A program made the translations under genes and the position numbers. From positions 21,339-74,759 of the forward strand of contig NZ_FMZO01000020.1 in the NCBI RefSeq assembly GCF_900101395.1: DNA of 53,421 nucleotides, given 5' to 3'. The stretch comes from Niabella drilacis (GTDB taxonomy: Bacteria; Bacteroidota; Bacteroidia; Chitinophagales; Chitinophagaceae). This document shows positions 1-40,774 of this stretch, one piece after another; position 1 is the first letter of the stretch, and each line of letters opens with the position of its first letter. The notes below the pieces were generated by a model that was not told where the DNA came from, searched no databases, and saw only the letters and a list, made by a program, of their open reading frames with translations.

Positions 1-58
1 TCAGTGGCTATAAATGCAAAGAGATCGTAGTTGTCGGTGTTTCAGCGCTTCAGTGGCC
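1..58. repeat. partial copy of the dispersed CTGTGGC/CAGTGG palindromic repeat
   Basis: The segment contains GTGTTTCAGCGCTTCAGTGGC and an opening TCAGTGGC, which resemble the arms of the 85-bp repeats at 16083-16167 and 16598-16683. It sits directly after the stop of the penicillin-binding protein gene and is cut by the window edge. The middle is diverged, so this is a degenerate relative at best. Confidence 0.45.
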
Positions 59-6400: not shown

Positions 6401-7369
6401 ATGATGCGACCCGGTATTTCCATAATACTCTGCACCTATAACGGGGCACTGAAACTTCCTGAAACATTGGGCTACCTTGCCCGTCAAAAAACGGATCAGC
6501 GTTTGGAGTGGGAGATCATATTTGTGGACAATAACTCCCATGATCATTCCACATCGATAGTTGAGGAAACATGGAGGCAACATAAAAGCCCGGCCCCTCT
6601 ATTTACCTATACCGAAACCACCCCCGGAAAATATTATGCCTTGCAGACTGCTATTGCCAGGGCTCATTACGATTATTTTATCATTTGCGATGATGATACC
6701 GGTTTTCACCCGGATTATTTATCACGGGCCTTTGAGCTGATGAATGCGCATCCGGAAGTAGGAGCAGCCGGTGGGCTTTCACTGTTAAAGCTGCCAGATG
6801 GAATAAAAGCTCCTGAATGGTTACCTGAGGACTATGAACCCTTTGCTTTAGGCCGGCAGGCCGACCGTACCGGGTATATACCAATGGTGAAGGGAAGACT
6901 TTGGGGGGCAGGGCTGGTTTCCAGGACGGATTTATATAAGAAGCTATATGCAACAATTCCTTCTTTGCTTATCGAATTACCGGATAAAAAGGCATTGATC
7001 TCAGAGGATACCGAGTTCTGCGCCCGTCTTATTCTAAAGGGGTATCAATTGTATTATGATGAAGGTCTGGTATTGCATCATATGCTGGACCATACAAAGC
7101 TGACTACAACGCATCGCGATAATCTCCGCTGTATACATGATGCTTCTGGAACAGTAATGGAACGGTATCGCATCGTAACCAAAGTAAGATTCAAAAAAAT
7201 CAAATGGCCTTATAAGCTAAAAGTTTTTTTTATAGTTCCCTTCCGAATGTGGTATACCAGTAATACGAAATCGAAGACACGGTACCGGAAACTATTACAA
7301 TATCTGTATCCCGGTTTATACGGCAGGGATATCATAATTGAACAAATACAGGAGTTTGCTGAAACGTAA
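6401..7369 (+). CDS. family 2 glycosyltransferase
   Basis: The 322-aa protein starts with GISIILCTYNG, has the UDP-sugar pocket block IIFVDNNSHD near residue 46, the metal-binding motif FIICDDDTGFHPDYL near 95, and the acceptor-side ISEDTEFCARL near 200, all GT2 hallmarks. The basic C-terminus (KVRFKKIKWPYKLKVFF) may touch the membrane surface. It follows the previous glycosyltransferase by 12 bases and precedes the WbsX-like gene by about 90 bases, so a shared transcript is likely. Donor and acceptor are not readable from sequence. Confidence 0.88.
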   Translation: MMRPGISIILCTYNGALKLPETLGYLARQKTDQRLEWEIIFVDNNSHDHSTSIVEETWRQHKSPAPLFTYTETTPGKYYALQTAIARAHYDYFIICDDDTGFHPDYLSRAFELMNAHPEVGAAGGLSLLKLPDGIKAPEWLPEDYEPFALGRQADRTGYIPMVKGRLWGAGLVSRTDLYKKLYATIPSLLIELPDKKALISEDTEFCARLILKGYQLYYDEGLVLHHMLDHTKLTTTHRDNLRCIHDASGTVMERYRIVTKVRFKKIKWPYKLKVFFIVPFRMWYTSNTKSKTRYRKLLQYLYPGLYGRDIIIEQIQEFAET

Positions 7370-7461
7370 TTTATTATTACGATAAGTTCGGAATGGAACG
7401 TTGCTCCTACACTTTAATCATACGTTCGGTTTTTGCTTTAGGGAGGCGTTAAAAAAATAAT

Positions 7462-8583
7462 ATGAACAATAAGGATGGTAGGAAAGATATAAAATGCCTG
7501 GCCTTTTACTTGCCACAATACCACCCCATACCAGAGAATGACGAATGGTGGGGAAAAGGGTTTACGGAGTGGACGAATGTAACCAGGGCAAAGCCCTTAT
7601 TCAGGGGGCATCAGCAACCCGTATTTCCCGCAGATCTGGGCTATTACGATCTAAGAGTGCCGGAGGTAAGAGAGGCGCAGGCGAAGATGGCAAAGGCGCA
7701 TGGCGTGCATGGGTTCATCTATTATCATTACTGGTTTGGTAACGGGAAGCAGCTTTTAGAGCGGCCGCTTAATGATATGGTAGCGTTAGAAAAGCCTGAC
7801 TTCCCCTTTTGCATCTGCTGGGCCAATGAAACCTGGAGCGGTATCTGGTATGGAGCGCCTGATCAGACATTGATCCGACAGGAATACCCCGGGAATGAGG
7901 ATATCGTTATGCATTTCGATTATCTGGTAAAAATCTTTGAAGACCCCCGGTACATCCGGGTAAATGGGCTTCCGCTATTTATGATCTATAATGGCTTAAA
8001 TCTGCCCGATAGTAAGTCTTATACAGATAAACTCAGGGAAGAGGCTGTAAAAAGAGGATTGGGCGGATTGTATATTATGGGATCAAATCTGCATCCGGAT
8101 AGTTGGGATTTTGAGGCCGCAGGGTTTGACGGAAGAGTTTCTTACGCTTATAATAAGGTGCAGTACCAGCTAATGTGGGAGGCAAAAAGACAACAGCAAA
8201 AAACAAGAGATCGTTTTTTGCGAAAGATTTTTTCAAAGAACAACGCCCCTCGTGTTACCCGTATTGACCAGCGTACATTGGTAGAAAACATTATTTTTGA
8301 AGATCAGCCGGGCGATATCTATCCGATGATACTACCCAACTGGGATAACACGCCGCGAAGCGCTCATAATGGCGTTGTGATTCAAAACACCAGTCCTGAG
8401 CTGTTTGAAACACAGATTCGTAATGCGATTGATTATATCAATAGCCGGGAGATGAGTGACCGGTTTATGATCCTTAAATCCTGGAATGAATGGGCAGAGG
8501 GAAATTATGTAGAACCCGATTCCCGGAATGGTTATGTCTATCTTGATGTTTTGAAAAAATATCTTACGCGGGCGGGTGTATAA
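7462..8583 (+). CDS. WbsX-like / glycoside hydrolase family 99-like protein
   Basis: The 373-aa product carries the WbsX/GH99-like signature AFYLPQYHPIPENDEWWGKG at the N-terminus, followed by FTEWTNVTRAKPLF and HGFIYYHYWF near residue 90. CWANETWSG near 128 and the late block LKSWNEWAEGNYVEPD near 340 are also diagnostic. The family is found in O-antigen and capsule loci, where it is often annotated as a glycosyltransferase or as a lipopolysaccharide-biosynthesis protein, although the fold is hydrolase-like (TIM barrel). No signal peptide is seen, so action in the cytoplasm is expected. Its position after two glycosyltransferase genes supports a glycan role; the reaction is unproven. Confidence 0.9.
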   Translation: MNNKDGRKDIKCLAFYLPQYHPIPENDEWWGKGFTEWTNVTRAKPLFRGHQQPVFPADLGYYDLRVPEVREAQAKMAKAHGVHGFIYYHYWFGNGKQLLERPLNDMVALEKPDFPFCICWANETWSGIWYGAPDQTLIRQEYPGNEDIVMHFDYLVKIFEDPRYIRVNGLPLFMIYNGLNLPDSKSYTDKLREEAVKRGLGGLYIMGSNLHPDSWDFEAAGFDGRVSYAYNKVQYQLMWEAKRQQQKTRDRFLRKIFSKNNAPRVTRIDQRTLVENIIFEDQPGDIYPMILPNWDNTPRSAHNGVVIQNTSPELFETQIRNAIDYINSREMSDRFMILKSWNEWAEGNYVEPDSRNGYVYLDVLKKYLTRAGV

Positions 8584-12085: not shown

Positions 12086-12101
12086 CCCGATGGCTATCGG
12101 G
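12086..12101. repeat. CCCGAT-GGCT-ATCGGG hairpin heading unit 1
   Basis: A perfect six-base stem with loop GGCT. Units 2 and 3 replace it with 13-base arms ATGCGCATGCGAT and ATCGCATGCGCAT (12391-12420 and 12700-12729) around the same loop. Units 4 and 5 have the left arm of the long type and the right arm of the short type. Confidence 0.8.
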
Positions 12102-13346
12102 AGCGCATCAAGATAAAAAACAGGTCTATTGCCATAAAATGTAGCGTGAATAAGCCTTTGGAGGCCAAAAAAGACCTGATCTTTTCATAGCAGGCGCAGC
12201 GCGCCGTAAATAATGGTAACAAGAACTCCCAGGGACTTACCCGTAGCCGCAGCGCGGCGGGAATCTTTTCGGGGGAGGCTTATAGTACCGGTGCCCTGCA
12301 CCTCTGTTCTGTCTCCTGTCCATTGCTAATAAGCGCAACGCTGCGCTGCAGCTTTTGCCTTTAACCACTATTCCTAAAATTAACCTGCTGATGCGCATGC
12401 GATGGCTATCGCATGCGCATCAAGATAAAAAACAGGTCTATCGCCATAAAATGTAGTATGAATAAGCCTTTGGAGGCCGAAAAGGACCTGATCTTTTGAT
12501 AGCAGGCGCAGCGCGCCGCAAATAATGGTAACAGGAACTTCCAGGGACTTACCCGTAGCCGCAGCGCGGCGGGAATCTTTTCGGGGGAGGCTTATAGTAC
12601 CGGTACGCTGCACCTCTGTTCCATCTCCTGTTCGTTGCTAATGAGCGCGACGCTGCGCTGCAGCTTTTGCCTTTAACCACTATTCCTAAAATTAACCTAA
12701 TGCGCATGCGATGGCTATCGCATGCGCATCAAGATAAAAAACAGGTCTATCGCCATAAAATGTAGTATGAATAAGCCTTTGGAGGCTAAAAAGACCTGAT
12801 CTTTTGATAGCAGGCGCAGCGCGCCGTAAATAATGGTAACAGGCACTTCCAGGGACTTACCCGTAGCCGCAGCGCGGCGGGAATCTTTTCGGGGGAGACT
12901 TATATTACCGGTGCGCTGCACCTCTGTTCCGTCTCCTGTCCATTGCTAATAAGAGCGACGCTGCGCTGCAGCTTTGGCCTTTAACCACTAAATTCCTAAA
13001 ATTAACCTGATGCGCATGCGATGGCTATCGGGAGCGCGTCAAGATAAAAAACAGGTCTATGGCCGTAAAGTGTAGTATGAATAAGCCTTTGGAAGCCAAA
13101 AAAGACCTGATCTTTTGATAGCAGGCGCAGCGCGCCGCAAATAATGGTAACCAGAACTTCCAGGGACTTACCCGTAGCCGCAGCGCGGCGGGAATCTTTT
13201 CGGGGGAGGCTTATAGTACCGGTGCGCTTGCACCTCTGTTCCATCTTATGTTCGTTGCTAATAAGCGCAACGCTGCGCTGTAGCTTTTGCCTTTGACCAC
13301 TATTCCTAAAATTAACCTGACACATATGCGATGGCTATCGGGAGCG
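12086..13346. repeat. tandem array: four ~310-bp units plus a truncated fifth
   Basis: Units run about 12086-12390, 12391-12699, 12700-13009 and 13010-13319, with only the opening hairpin of a fifth at 13320-13346. The landmark CAGGTCTA recurs at 12121, 12433, 12742 and 13052 (spacing 312, 309, 310). Each unit has the same order of small palindromes: a head hairpin with loop GGCT, GGCGC-AGC-GCGCC, GCCGC-AGC-GCGGC, and GCGCA..TGCGC, and ends in ATTCCTAAAATTAACCT. By eye the units are well over 90% identical. Minus-strand open frames are broken by a stop in unit 1 and by single-base indels in units 3 and 4, so the array is probably non-coding. I recognise no named family. It lies between the exporter gene and rplK. 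Confidence 0.9.
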
Positions 13347-15650: not shown

Positions 15651-16025
15651 ATGGCAGATATTAAAACATTAGCAGAAAGCCTGGTAGGTTTAACTGTAAA
15701 AGAAGTACAGGAATTAGCAGATTTCTTAAAGACCGAGTACGGTATTGAGCCTGCTGCAGCTGCAGTAGTAGTAGCTGGTGGCGGCGACGGTGGTGCAGCC
15801 GCTGCTGAAGAAAAAACAGCATTTGATGTGATCCTTAAGAGCGCAGGTGCTTCTAAACTGAACGTTGTGAAGATCGTTAAAGATCTGACCGGCTTAGGTC
15901 TGAAAGAGGCAAAAGAACTGGTAGACGGAGCTCCGAAACCGGTGAAAGAAGGTATCTCTAAAGCTGAAGCTGAAGACATCGCTGCTAAACTGAAAGAAGC
16001 AGGTGCTGAAGTAGAAGTAGCTTAA
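15651..16025 (+). CDS. rplL: 50S ribosomal protein L7/L12
   Basis: L7/L12 forms the mobile stalk that recruits translation factors. The 124-aa protein has the N-terminal dimerisation helix region ([20 protein letters not shown]), an Ala/Gly-rich hinge near 38-52 and the C-terminal factor-binding domain ([20 protein letters not shown]). It ends the ribosomal operon here: a strong terminator follows, whereas rpoB normally comes next. Confidence 0.97.
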
Positions 16026-16045: not shown

Positions 16046-16080
16046 GTCCTGTAAGGTCTGTGGATCTTACAGGACTTTTT
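16046..16080 (+). terminator. intrinsic terminator after rplL
   Basis: A perfect 10-bp stem, GTCCTGTAAG (16046-16055) with CTTACAGGAC (16066-16075), followed by TTTTT. It closes the rplKAJL operon. Confidence 0.9.
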
Positions 16081-16082
16081 AT

Positions 16083-16167
16083 TTGCCACAGAGACGCTGA
16101 AACACAGATTTTTTGATACCACTGCAAAGGGAAATAAAAGTCTTCAGTATTTCTGTGCTTCAGTGGC
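16083..16167. repeat. 85-bp palindromic repeat, copy A
   Basis: It runs from TTGCCACAGAGACGCTGAAA to GTGCTTCAGTGGC. Its two ends are imperfect inverted repeats of each other (GCCAC..CTGAAACACAGA against TCTGTGCTTCAGTGGC). Copy B at 16598-16683 differs at roughly ten positions and has the same orientation, so A and B form direct repeats around the GxxExxY gene. Confidence 0.85.
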
Positions 16168-16183
16168 AATAAAGGGCCGCGGC

Positions 16184-16582
16184 TCAGAAGCTAACCTGCT
16201 TGATCCGCCGCTTCATTTTCCCAAAATTCAGGATCAATCCAACCTTACAGCCGGAGCACTTAAGATAGTTGATTGTTTGCGCCAGGTCTTCTTCTGCTAC
16301 ACCGCCTTCTTTTGCTTTTATTTCGAGGATCACGGTGTCGAAGACAACGAAGTCTGCCTGGAACTGGTGTGGTAAAACGACATCTTTATACTGTATTTTA
16401 TACCTTCTTTCCCGGTCATACCAGATGGCGTTTTTTCCAAACTCGTATTCAAAGGCGTCTTTATAAAGGATTTCGAGGAAGCCAGGGCCAGGGGTCTTAT
16501 GAATTTCGATGCCGTATTTTATGATCGTGTCAGTTTCCCTTTGAAGGGGATAATTTTCGGGATCAAAGTTTTTGTTTGACAT
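16184..16582 (-). CDS. GxxExxY protein (PD-(D/E)XK nuclease-like)
   Basis: The 132-aa product (start at 16582, MSNKNF) contains the family motif GPGFLEILY, giving G-x-x-E-x-x-Y, near residue 34. Further on, a PD-(D/E)XK-like core is visible: an aspartate in FQADFVVFD near 72 and EIK in VILEIKAKEG near 85. The C-terminus KCSGCKVGLILNFGK is also typical. The fold points to a metal-dependent nuclease, but no substrate is established for the family. A longer frame reaches 16642, but its first 20 residues come from repeat copy B, so I reject that start. The gene is enclosed by 85-bp direct repeats on both sides and lies between rplL and a gene on its own strand. Confidence 0.88.
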   Translation of the reverse strand: MSNKNFDPENYPLQRETDTIIKYGIEIHKTPGPGFLEILYKDAFEYEFGKNAIWYDRERRYKIQYKDVVLPHQFQADFVVFDTVILEIKAKEGGVAEEDLAQTINYLKCSGCKVGLILNFGKMKRRIKQVSF

Positions 16583-16597
16583 AACGGTATTTTTTAG

Positions 16598-16683
16598 TTG
16601 CCATAGAGACGCTGAAACACAGATTTTTTGATAGCACTGCAAACGGAAATAAAAAGCGATCAGTGTTTCTGAGCTTCAGTGGC
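16598..16683. repeat. 85-bp palindromic repeat, copy B
   Basis: Near-identical to copy A and in the same orientation. Its right end runs into the 3' end of the HhH gene, supplying that gene's last codons and stop. Confidence 0.85.
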
Positions 16684-17571
16684 TTCAACCCGGATATACG
16701 GCTCCAGCTTTTCAAATACATCATTTGTCTGAGCTACCAGTACCCGCAATGCTTCCGGGGAGGTGATCGGCGCGGTTCTTCGTTGCTTAGTGATAAGATA
16801 GGCGAGCTTGCTGCTGATATAGGGATGCGCATTGAGGGTTTCATAGGAAGCGGTATTGATATCGAGCTGCCGGACCCCCGGGGTATTTAAACGGAGCAGG
16901 GGGCTTATTTTCCGGAACGTAGAATCAGGAACACCATAGGTTTCTCCAACCTGGCTGATAGTATAAAACCCGCCCAGCTTTTCCCGGTAATTCACGATCC
17001 TTGCAGCAAGTTTGCTGCCGATACCATAAAGCGTTTTATAAGCGAGGATATCTGCCGTATTCACATCAATGGTCTGTGGTGCTTTGCGTGCGCCTGTTTG
17101 TGCCGGGACAGGATATGTGGGCCCGGTGATCAGGATATAGGGACTGAGGCGTTCAAATTCATCCGGGTGCAGTCCGTAGATCTTTTGGAGGTCTTCCTTT
17201 TTGCGAAAGCGTCCTCCTTTTTTCCGGTAGTTTATGATCGTCCGGATCGTCCGCTCCCGGAGACCCAGCTGCAGCCATCCTTCTTCACTCAAAGTATTAG
17301 GATCAAAATTAAAGAGGATCACTTTTGAAGCAGGAACAGGATATTGATGAGACTTGTAATGCCCGGTACGTGCAGGTTCTGCGAGGGAATCTTTTTCTGA
17401 AGAAGTGTTTGGGGCTGTTGTGAGCGCGTTGAGTGCAGCCCGGTCTCTTTCATCCAGGGGCATGTTGGTATGTTGCCTGATAAAAGGAGCAACAGCAAAA
17501 AACAGGATAACGAACAGCAGCAGGCATAAACCCAATAACTCTTTTTTAGAGAATTTTAAATACGCTTTCAT
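16660..17571 (-). CDS. membrane-anchored helix-hairpin-helix (ComEA-like) protein
   Basis: The 303-aa protein has an N-terminal membrane anchor (LLGLCLLLFVILFFAVAPF, about residues 13-31), then three helix-hairpin-helix modules: FNFDPNTLSEEGWLQLGL near 87, IDVNTADILAYKTLYGIGSK near 167, and LDINTASYETLNAHPYI near 235. The FDPN/DVNTA openings are typical of ComEA-type DNA-binding modules, so binding of DNA outside the inner membrane, possibly in DNA uptake, is a reasonable guess. Its last eight codons (EATEAQKH region) and its stop lie inside repeat copy B, which suggests that the original C-terminus was replaced. Confidence 0.85.
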   Translation of the reverse strand: MKAYLKFSKKELLGLCLLLFVILFFAVAPFIRQHTNMPLDERDRAALNALTTAPNTSSEKDSLAEPARTGHYKSHQYPVPASKVILFNFDPNTLSEEGWLQLGLRERTIRTIINYRKKGGRFRKKEDLQKIYGLHPDEFERLSPYILITGPTYPVPAQTGARKAPQTIDVNTADILAYKTLYGIGSKLAARIVNYREKLGGFYTISQVGETYGVPDSTFRKISPLLRLNTPGVRQLDINTASYETLNAHPYISSKLAYLITKQRRTAPITSPEALRVLVAQTNDVFEKLEPYIRVEATEAQKH

Positions 17572-40533: not shown

Positions 40534-40703
40534 ACGATGCTGTAAAAATACCAAACGAAGATCGATTGCTTTTTCCTTTGAGCCTCCGTGTTTGTTGAAT
40601 ACCGGAACAAACTGCTTCCAATACCGGGCATAAAGAAAATGTGCTTTAGCCACAGGGACAGAAAAAGACCGGCGGCTAAAGTATAAAATCAAAGGGCTGG
40701 GAA

Positions 40704-40774
40704 TAAACTCAGTGTTCAGTGGCGCTGTAGCCTTCCTGGAAATTTTTGTGCTTCTGAACCTCTGTGGCCATTTA
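40704..40774. repeat. diverged copy of the CTGTGGC palindromic repeat, opposite orientation
   Basis: The stretch has TTCAGTGGC near its start and TTGTGCTTCTGAACCTCTGTGGC at its end, resembling the 85-bp repeats at 16.1 and 16.6 kb read on the other strand. It lies in the 281-base gap before the permease gene; nothing else is recognisable there. Confidence 0.5.

Follow-up and report, generated by a model that had tools for sequence, protein, structure and literature searches.

What is a gene for a small nuclease-like protein doing between two near-identical palindromic repeats on the chromosome of Niabella drilacis? The gene belongs to the GxxExxY family and lies in a stretch of 53,421 nucleotides that we refer to as the window (G000:C39:21339-74759, G000 being the organism's own genome of 6.1 Mb). 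An initial annotation had described positions 16083-16683 as a gene packaged between near-identical direct palindromic repeats. We found these coordinates to be right, with the two repeats being 86 nt long, directly oriented and 90% identical (blastn E 1.2e-27 within the window). The features of the window that concern us are the following.

15651..16025, plus strand: rplL-like ribosomal gene, a neighbour of the unit (ORF)
16083..16168, no strand: repeat copy on the rplL side, an imperfect palindrome with 3 + 2 tandem 8-nt units of the CACNGANN type
16184..16582, minus strand: GxxExxY gene (PD-(D/E)XK, Cas4/RecB-like), a 132-aa ORF with its ATG at 16582
16598..16683, no strand: repeat copy on the comEA side, in direct orientation relative to the copy at 16083..16168
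16660..17571, minus strand: gene for a ComEA-like helix-hairpin-helix protein, a neighbour (ORF) that is co-directional with, and upstream of, the GxxExxY gene
1..58, no strand: gene-less diverged copy, right half, cut by the window edge (profile match and sequence)
40648..40770, no strand: possible strongly diverged composite copy, doubtful (by eye only)

We take 15651..16025 to be rplL on the strength of the gene order rplK-A-J-L, and the product of 16660..17571 is presumably a ComEA.

The two repeats are built alike. In each, one arm consists of three 8-nt units (GCCACAGA GACGCTGA AACACAGA) and the other of two, and the palindrome ends are GCCAC..GTGGC. Folded as RNA, each forms a stem in which exactly 8 nt are left unpaired on one side, which amounts to one extra 8-nt unit. 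These RNA folds beat most shuffles (z of -2.7 and -1.9, with 2 and 5 of 200 shuffles folding equally well), whereas the DNA folds of both repeats are no better than shuffles (z of -1.0 and -0.8). Just ahead of the repeat-gene-repeat unit lies a terminator-like hairpin (an inverted repeat at 16046-16075). On the other side, the comEA-like frame takes its last codons and stop (16660-16683) from the repeat at 16598-16683, as it also does in the related genomes G005, G006 and G011; in G010 and G015 the comEA stop precedes the repeat.

A profile of the repeat family recovers both copies, with E 3.1e-19 at 16083..16168 and E 1.5e-18 at 16598..16683. Two diverged, gene-less copies had also been proposed within the window. 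The first stands: the profile matches positions 13-57 with E 1.2e-4, and only the right half of the copy is seen because its left part falls outside the window, where the bases read N. The second, placed at 40704-40774, is doubtful, because it rests on a reading by eye (GCCACAGG.. at about 40648 and ..CTCTGTGGC at about 40768) and is not recovered by the profile at E 0.05. At gathering scores, Rfam finds six tRNAs in the whole window and nothing else. A different repeat, of ~310 nt, is present in about four tandem copies at window positions 12088-13346 and recurs elsewhere in the same genome (L014; L259 at 7199-7677); copies of it at G000:C25 have a partial GxxExxY match on either side (198395-198607 and 200024-200242).

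What kind of protein does the gene encode? Its product matches TIGR04256 (107 bits against a cut-off of 35, E 6.9e-31) and PF13366 (PDDEXK_3; 100 bits against a cut-off of 22, E 1.3e-28) and no other family, which means that it matches no HUH/Y1 transposase, no other transposase and no S23 protein. Nucleases of the RecB/Cas4 type are marked by the combination of D..ExK and QxxxY. In an alignment of 56 sequences of the clade, comprising the window sequence and those of 55 of the 75 stop-free loci, the residues G34, E37, Y40, D77, E87, K89 and Y106 (numbered as in the window protein) are invariant; Q102, present in the window protein, reaches 90% conservation or more among 18 diverse sequences and is not among the columns conserved at 90% in the 56. 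The predicted structure (pLDDT 88) has as its best Foldseek match the Cas4 protein SSO0001 (4ic1; E 2.9e-4, probability 1.00), with a TM score of 0.56-0.58 by query length but an rmsd of about 12. Further matches are, in order, LHK-Exo, AddB and lambda exonuclease, with an archaeal Holliday-junction resolvase being weaker. A search of PDB sequences gave five implausible matches with phmmer (E 0.37-1.1) and none with a profile. The D..ExK residues had been read earlier as fitting a PD-(D/E)XK nuclease, and the two family matches, the invariance of D77, E87 and K89 and the Cas4-like model bear this out.

The protein is under functional constraint (purifying selection) in the three pairs for which dN/dS could be computed. 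The ratio is 0.09 against locus L050, at a dS of 1.77 that is near saturation, and 0.05 and 0.06 in two Bacteroides-type pairs; three further pairs were saturated. Among 59 genomes, the organism's own and those of relatives, 42 have GxxExxY matches above the cut-off, at most 11 in one genome. We rejected the idea that the gene is phage or plasmid cargo: tblastn searches with the window protein (E 1e-5) matched 6 of 72,556 records in a plasmid collection and 0 of 50,697 phage records. Three relatives, belonging to another clade, were found on viral contigs.

If the arrangement in the window reflects a real link between gene and repeats, GxxExxY genes should generally have flanking repeats, and a survey of their flanks had been suggested for this reason. 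We surveyed the best 80 of 406 relatives of the window's protein clade. After 3 N-masked loci and 8 with short flanks were left out, 46 of 69 loci had an inverted or direct flank score of at least 20, compared with 5 of 289 other ORFs of the same loci, and the strongest of these five control matches turns out to be a further GxxExxY gene. Within 160 nt of the gene, 75 of the 80 loci have a GCCACNGA/GCCACGAA arm, and 54 have one on both sides, while control frames of the same loci have the motif on any side in 99 of 3,093 cases and on both sides in 2; the arm-motif fractions are favourable ones, because some of these loci had already been read when we settled on the motif, and the flank-score and shuffle tests are independent of it. 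When all clades were considered, in loci from the organism's own genome and relatives that include the window's, the repeat threshold was reached by 47 of 89 loci and by 4 of 42 control ORFs. This all-clade set comprises 90 loci, namely 30 of 36 that were fetched (including the window copy, L013) and 60 that were chosen, with L010 dropped here for its short flank and the fragments or contig ends L014-L017, L032 and L042 left out from the start. That GxxExxY genes should generally be without flanking repeats is contradicted by these results.

The loci below the repeat threshold, 23 of 69 in the clade and 42 of 89 in the all-clade set, are often not bare. In many of them, and in some above the threshold too, short inverted arms can be seen by eye (TCGCGCAAAGACGCTAAG, AACCACATAGACACATAG and so on); at L018, L038 and L244 none were seen by eye. 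Mispaired flanks of different loci match in 171 of 1,500 cases, which is frequent enough that part of the signal must be a shared motif; this figure comes from the first flank test, which included the N-masked L122 and took positions regardless of genes, and which was superseded by the later tests. Arms and gene occur in several orders, with L gene R at 22 of the 80 loci, LR gene LR at 9, R gene L at 9 and mixed orders at the remainder. The six matches in the plasmid collection reach other phyla, and three of them pass the flank score of 20 (Bacteroides finegoldii, inverted 24; Bernardetia, inverted 20; a Fusobacteria record, direct 34), with Treponema (inverted arm 12), Persicobacter (18) and Gemmatirosa (19.5) falling below it. 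Just after position 5372 of L084 there seems to be a second, 5'-truncated GxxExxY copy with one arm in between, by eye a tandem duplication of the unit.

GxxExxY genes are generally associated with inverted unit arrays, in a clade-specific manner. One could object that genes and repeats which both favour intergenic space are bound to meet by chance in repeat-rich genomes, and some control ORFs do have flanking repeats, as the 5 of 289 and 4 of 42 above attest. For the survey as a whole, however, coincidence is contradicted by the matched-ORF and matched-frame controls and by shuffles within genomes (see below), and we give it almost no credence.

The arms are made of short tandem units, the commonest period of which is 8 nt. 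In the autocorrelation of 100-nt flanks, 8 is the best lag at 40 of 80 clade loci versus 8 of 73 controls, and at 32 of 90 loci of relatives versus 7 of 89 controls; in the latter, a lag of 9 comes second (19 of 90 versus 14 of 89). As a control family for this unit test we took TIGR02436, the S23/IVS four-helix-bundle genes, which have 16 matches in the organism's own genome (e.g. G000:C29:501583-501903) and for which 29 loci from the genus were used (L158-L187, L184 being dropped). Their best lag is 7 at 25 of 29 loci versus 8 of 29 controls. Units of 7 nt (AGTTGAC, TTAGACG, GAGATTC, AGTTATC) form inverted or direct arrays around these genes, and 12 of the 29 loci reach the repeat threshold. 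The S23 family, though chosen as a control, thus has the same architecture with a 7-nt unit, and a gene set in inverted unit arrays may be a general design found in at least two protein families.

Does each protein have arms of its own? We compared protein similarity with arm similarity between genomes for 90 loci in 32 genomes, with ORFs excluded from the flanks, and used as the null 1,000 shuffles of the arms among the loci of each genome. (Earlier pairing tests were open to inflation by coding ends in the flank; the rerun with ORFs excluded went in the same direction.) The correlation is 0.455, and the maximum among shuffles is 0.171. It persists in pairs that share no neighbouring genes (r 0.353; shuffle maximum 0.124), and also when the upstream arm of one locus is compared with the inverted downstream arm of another (r 0.332; shuffle maximum 0.169). 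The signal sits in moderately similar proteins; between distant clades the arms are unrelated (median score 11). Because r lies above all within-genome shuffles, different clades in one genome tend toward differing arms, while one clade has similar arms at unrelated sites. By this correlation, gene and arms are inherited and exchanged together and remain matched.

The repeats are also found without the gene. An iterated profile search covered 490 kb of the organism's own genome, of which 400 kb were taken blind from contig C29 and the rest consisted of the window and of loci fetched through matches. It recovered gene-less copies of ~75-125 nt that share the plan of the window repeats, at four places in the blind 400 kb. 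The pattern GCCACNGANNCACNGA has 32 matches in this genome, 31 of them away from the window locus and none within 2 kb of other GxxExxY matches; the full palindrome was checked for only part of the single matches. In other genomes of the genus palindrome patterns form regular, BIME-like arrays (G015:C1:1772828-1773307 with ~102-nt spacing, for the clade B pattern, and G005:C11:938798-939353 with ~135-nt spacing). Gene-less palindromes are present across the genome, and presumably reached these places by an act of spreading.

A link of this sort would be called into question if the repeats were equally common in genomes without the gene, and here the answer is divided. The four genomes of the genus that have the window orthologue, intact or broken, contain 12, 19, 32 and 46 pattern matches, but the other 13 contain 51, 29, 23, 6, 3, 2, 2, 1 and, in five cases, zero, so that the three most populated of these rival the orthologue genomes. 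Pattern abundance follows the orthologue as a tendency, not as a rule. Among 248 genomes of the order, 11 have at least 5 matches to the window pattern; all 11 have some GxxExxY match (166 of the 248 do overall), and 5 carry the window's clade. That clade (at least 130 bits) is present in 24 genomes of the order, and 19 of these have fewer than 5 pattern matches, 15 having none. For clade C, the pattern is present in 5 of 5 genomes of the genus with the clade and in 0 of 12 others; in 3 of the 5, every exact match is the unit's own arm, and gene-less matches number, by our reading, about 24, dispersed, in G002 and 4 in G014. By eye, clade-C units at L024, L188 and L199 lie beside or at the end of genes resembling restriction-modification genes, and may have a preference for such operons. 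The clade B pattern was found in all 6 genomes that have the clade and in 5 of the 11 that do not (Fisher p 0.04); two of these five, G006 and G012, have a partial GxxExxY match beside a pattern match. Repeats lacking a cognate gene are also found in G008, and those of dialect B in G056 (with 21 matches), G005, G008 and G011. Outside the genus, GxxExxY matches are entirely absent from G021 (10 pattern matches, in another dialect) and from G032 (1 pattern match). Gene and repeats are therefore associated but separable.

Such genomes, with repeats and no gene, could be taken to mean that the repeats are an independent palindromic family and that the nuclease is a homing gene which lands in them and does not move them. 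The several orders in which arms and gene occur (see above) would agree with this. It sits poorly, though, with the finding that arms and protein clade co-vary across unrelated sites, including when upstream arms are set against downstream ones, and with a site in Bacteroides-type genomes (described below) at which both arms change with the clade; we regard this reading as very improbable.

The fate of the unit can be followed at its own site. We read by eye the 800 nt beside comEA in 17 genomes of the genus, all of which have a comEA-like match. An intact GxxExxY gene between repeats is present in G000, with one repeat on each side, and in G005, with several. In G010 and G006 the repeats are present and the frame of the gene is broken, G015 has one solo repeat between comEA and rplL and no gene, and G011 has repeat-like sequence and no gene. 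In the other 11 genomes we saw neither rplL nor a GxxExxY unit beside comEA (in one, L143, a contig end interrupts the region). The site thus exists in filled, decayed and gene-less form.

A second site, between radA and the gene for an FAD protein, offers more loci. We searched for the B. finegoldii region in 119 genomes of the genus of G489, the nearest member of which is 98% identical to the B. finegoldii record, and fetched the best 30 loci, a best-first choice that favours filled sites. Seventeen are filled, 11 are empty (spacer of 36-80 nt), one meets a contig end and one has another insert; with L273 and two further empty loci added, 18 are filled and 13 empty, some being nearly identical to each other. 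Empty sites, which the initial annotation had suggested looking for in relatives, are to be found in these 13 loci; at the window's own site, G015 is gene-less with a solo repeat. Filled units mostly span TTCACCAC to GTGGTGAA. Three protein clades occur at this one site, and the arms on either side are specific to the clade: CACAGAGGA units in one, a mixture of CACAGAGGA and CACAGAGTT in another, and CACAGATTA units in the third (CGCAGATTA in L304; L293 is mixed).

The tree of the flanking genes conflicts with that of the units. On the flank tree, presence and absence require 5 changes (1,000 label shuffles: mean 10.2, minimum 5), and four states require 11. The units of L288 and L287 are 97% identical and their flanks 90% and 82%, and L291, the flank sister of L288 (92-93%), holds the unit of another clade. 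This discordance shows an exchange of units between genomes at one and the same place, brought about either by the units themselves or by ordinary homologous recombination in the flanking genes. Units, then, both decay and are exchanged. We found no target-site duplication at filled/empty pairs, and a comparison of the empty L301 with the filled L285 shows a difference over the entire 80-nt spacer, so this was not a clean insertion. An insertion sequence or MITE with a DDE transposase was rejected as an identity for the unit, which contains no transposase and shows no duplication at these pairs.

The allele-like replacement of one clade by another at a single site also brings to mind a regulatory or defence locus. 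The arms would then be operators, attenuators or self-protection sites, the protein would act on foreign DNA, and the exchange at one site would reflect diversifying selection as in restriction systems. The position of some clade-C genes beside apparent restriction-modification genes (by eye) points the same way, as does a weak match to a Cas4b profile, for the protein of L035 only (E 9.9e-5). However, none of 5,027 PADLOC models is matched by the window protein or by that of L273, no known defence or phage family was matched by the window protein, and if the arms were operators, one would not expect to find them dispersed in gene-less copies and in arrays. We judge a regulatory or defence role decidedly unlikely.

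The genes around the unit bear on a further possibility. The upstream neighbour of the GxxExxY gene is co-directional with it in 131 of 155 cases, compared with 353 of 503 background pairs, and this enrichment fits a 3' passenger. A passenger of the IVS kind would live in transcribed regions, behind a gene of the same direction, and have arms that pair in RNA, so that RNase III cleaves the cassette out and the operon is spared; the nuclease would serve homing only, and gene-less hairpins would be decayed remnants. That the RNA folds of the window copies, and not the DNA folds, beat most shuffles is in keeping with this proposal, as is the setting of S23/IVS genes in similar arrays, since PMC4990558 describes an S23/IVS form inserted in the 23S rRNA of Coxiella that is excised by RNase III. 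On the other hand, co-direction is not raised among downstream neighbours (106 of 153), the gene-less palindromes are numerous and alike in plan, and pairing in RNA would not by itself require the arms to fit the protein clade, as they do. We therefore hold an IVS-like passenger to be possible, though unlikely.

How does the unit compare with known systems? The features of REP/RAYT systems (REPtrons, REPINs, BIMEs) are those defined in PMC2817692 and PMC3733652. Like them, the GxxExxY cassette has palindromes on both sides of its gene, further copies dispersed without the gene and copies in tandem arrays, and the clade of the enzyme correlates with its own repeat, per-genome abundance doing so only partly. 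Unlike them, it has a PD-(D/E)XK (Cas4/RecB-like) enzyme where the RAYT is of the HUH/Y1 type, its palindromes are without a GTAG (or GT(A/G)G) head, and its arms are arrays of ~8-nt units of which the repeat type varies between clades. Because the defining enzyme and the GTAG head are missing, the cassette resembles REP/RAYT systems and is not a member of them. The earlier description of a REP-like element with a cognate enzyme is accordingly upheld as regards the generality of the flanks, the clade-specific repeat and the dispersed copies, and is weakened by the genomes that have repeats without the gene. S23/IVS genes are alike in being small genes within inverted or direct short-unit arrays, with many chromosomal copies in the same genus, but belong to an unrelated protein family and have a best lag of 7 and not 8. 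The Cas4/RecB nucleases (4ic1, lambda exonuclease, AddB) give the best matches to the model and share the conserved D, ExK and Y, whereas the GxxExxY protein is a stand-alone minimal domain with no PDB relative found by sequence search. Homing endonuclease cassettes likewise show presence and absence and exchange between genomes at a fixed site, but the GxxExxY arms belong to a dispersed repeat family, and the spacer is replaced and not cleanly interrupted. The literature that we searched, which did not extend to subscription papers, preprints or the notes of the TIGR04256 curators, contains no account of a GxxExxY gene with repeats; GxxExxY receives passing mentions only, and the arm sequences, searched as words, led to nothing related.

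Taken together, we think it somewhat probable that the locus in the window is one copy of a selfish chromosomal cassette, in which a gene for a Cas4/RecB-like nuclease is framed by its own recognition repeats. The matching of arms to protein clades and the dispersal of gene-less palindromes suggest a nuclease that would recognise these arms, cut at them and in this way spread them. Most likely the nuclease would bind its cognate unit arrays, probably in extruded or single-stranded form, and cut at the bound arrays, after which recombination repair would place a copy of a palindrome, or of the entire cassette, at the cut site or at one next to it. A PD-(D/E)XK enzyme would thus, by analogy, fill the role that is thought to be played for REPs by the RAYT, an HUH transposase. 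Where a filled and an empty allele meet, the result would be homing-like. More tentatively, and with somewhat less than even confidence, we propose that this is a class of self-spreading repeat cassettes in which a lone Cas4/RecB-like nuclease reads short-unit arrays and drives the copying of both the hairpin and its own gene, the unit co-evolving with the enzyme and being clade-specific, and that S23 genes share the architecture.

GxxExxY is a curated nuclease family, and our results propose what the family is for. They also account for several short-repeat families in Bacteroidota, and they offer natural pairs of enzyme and recognition sequence in which the candidate recognition unit can be read from the genome. 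Nucleases of the PD-(D/E)XK (Cas4/RecB-like) kind are not known to move DNA alone. If the enzyme does drive the repeats, the REP/RAYT way of life would have arisen independently for a second time in these cassettes. The layout that they share with S23/IVS genes provides a testable link to the old puzzle of the intervening sequences in 23S rRNA.
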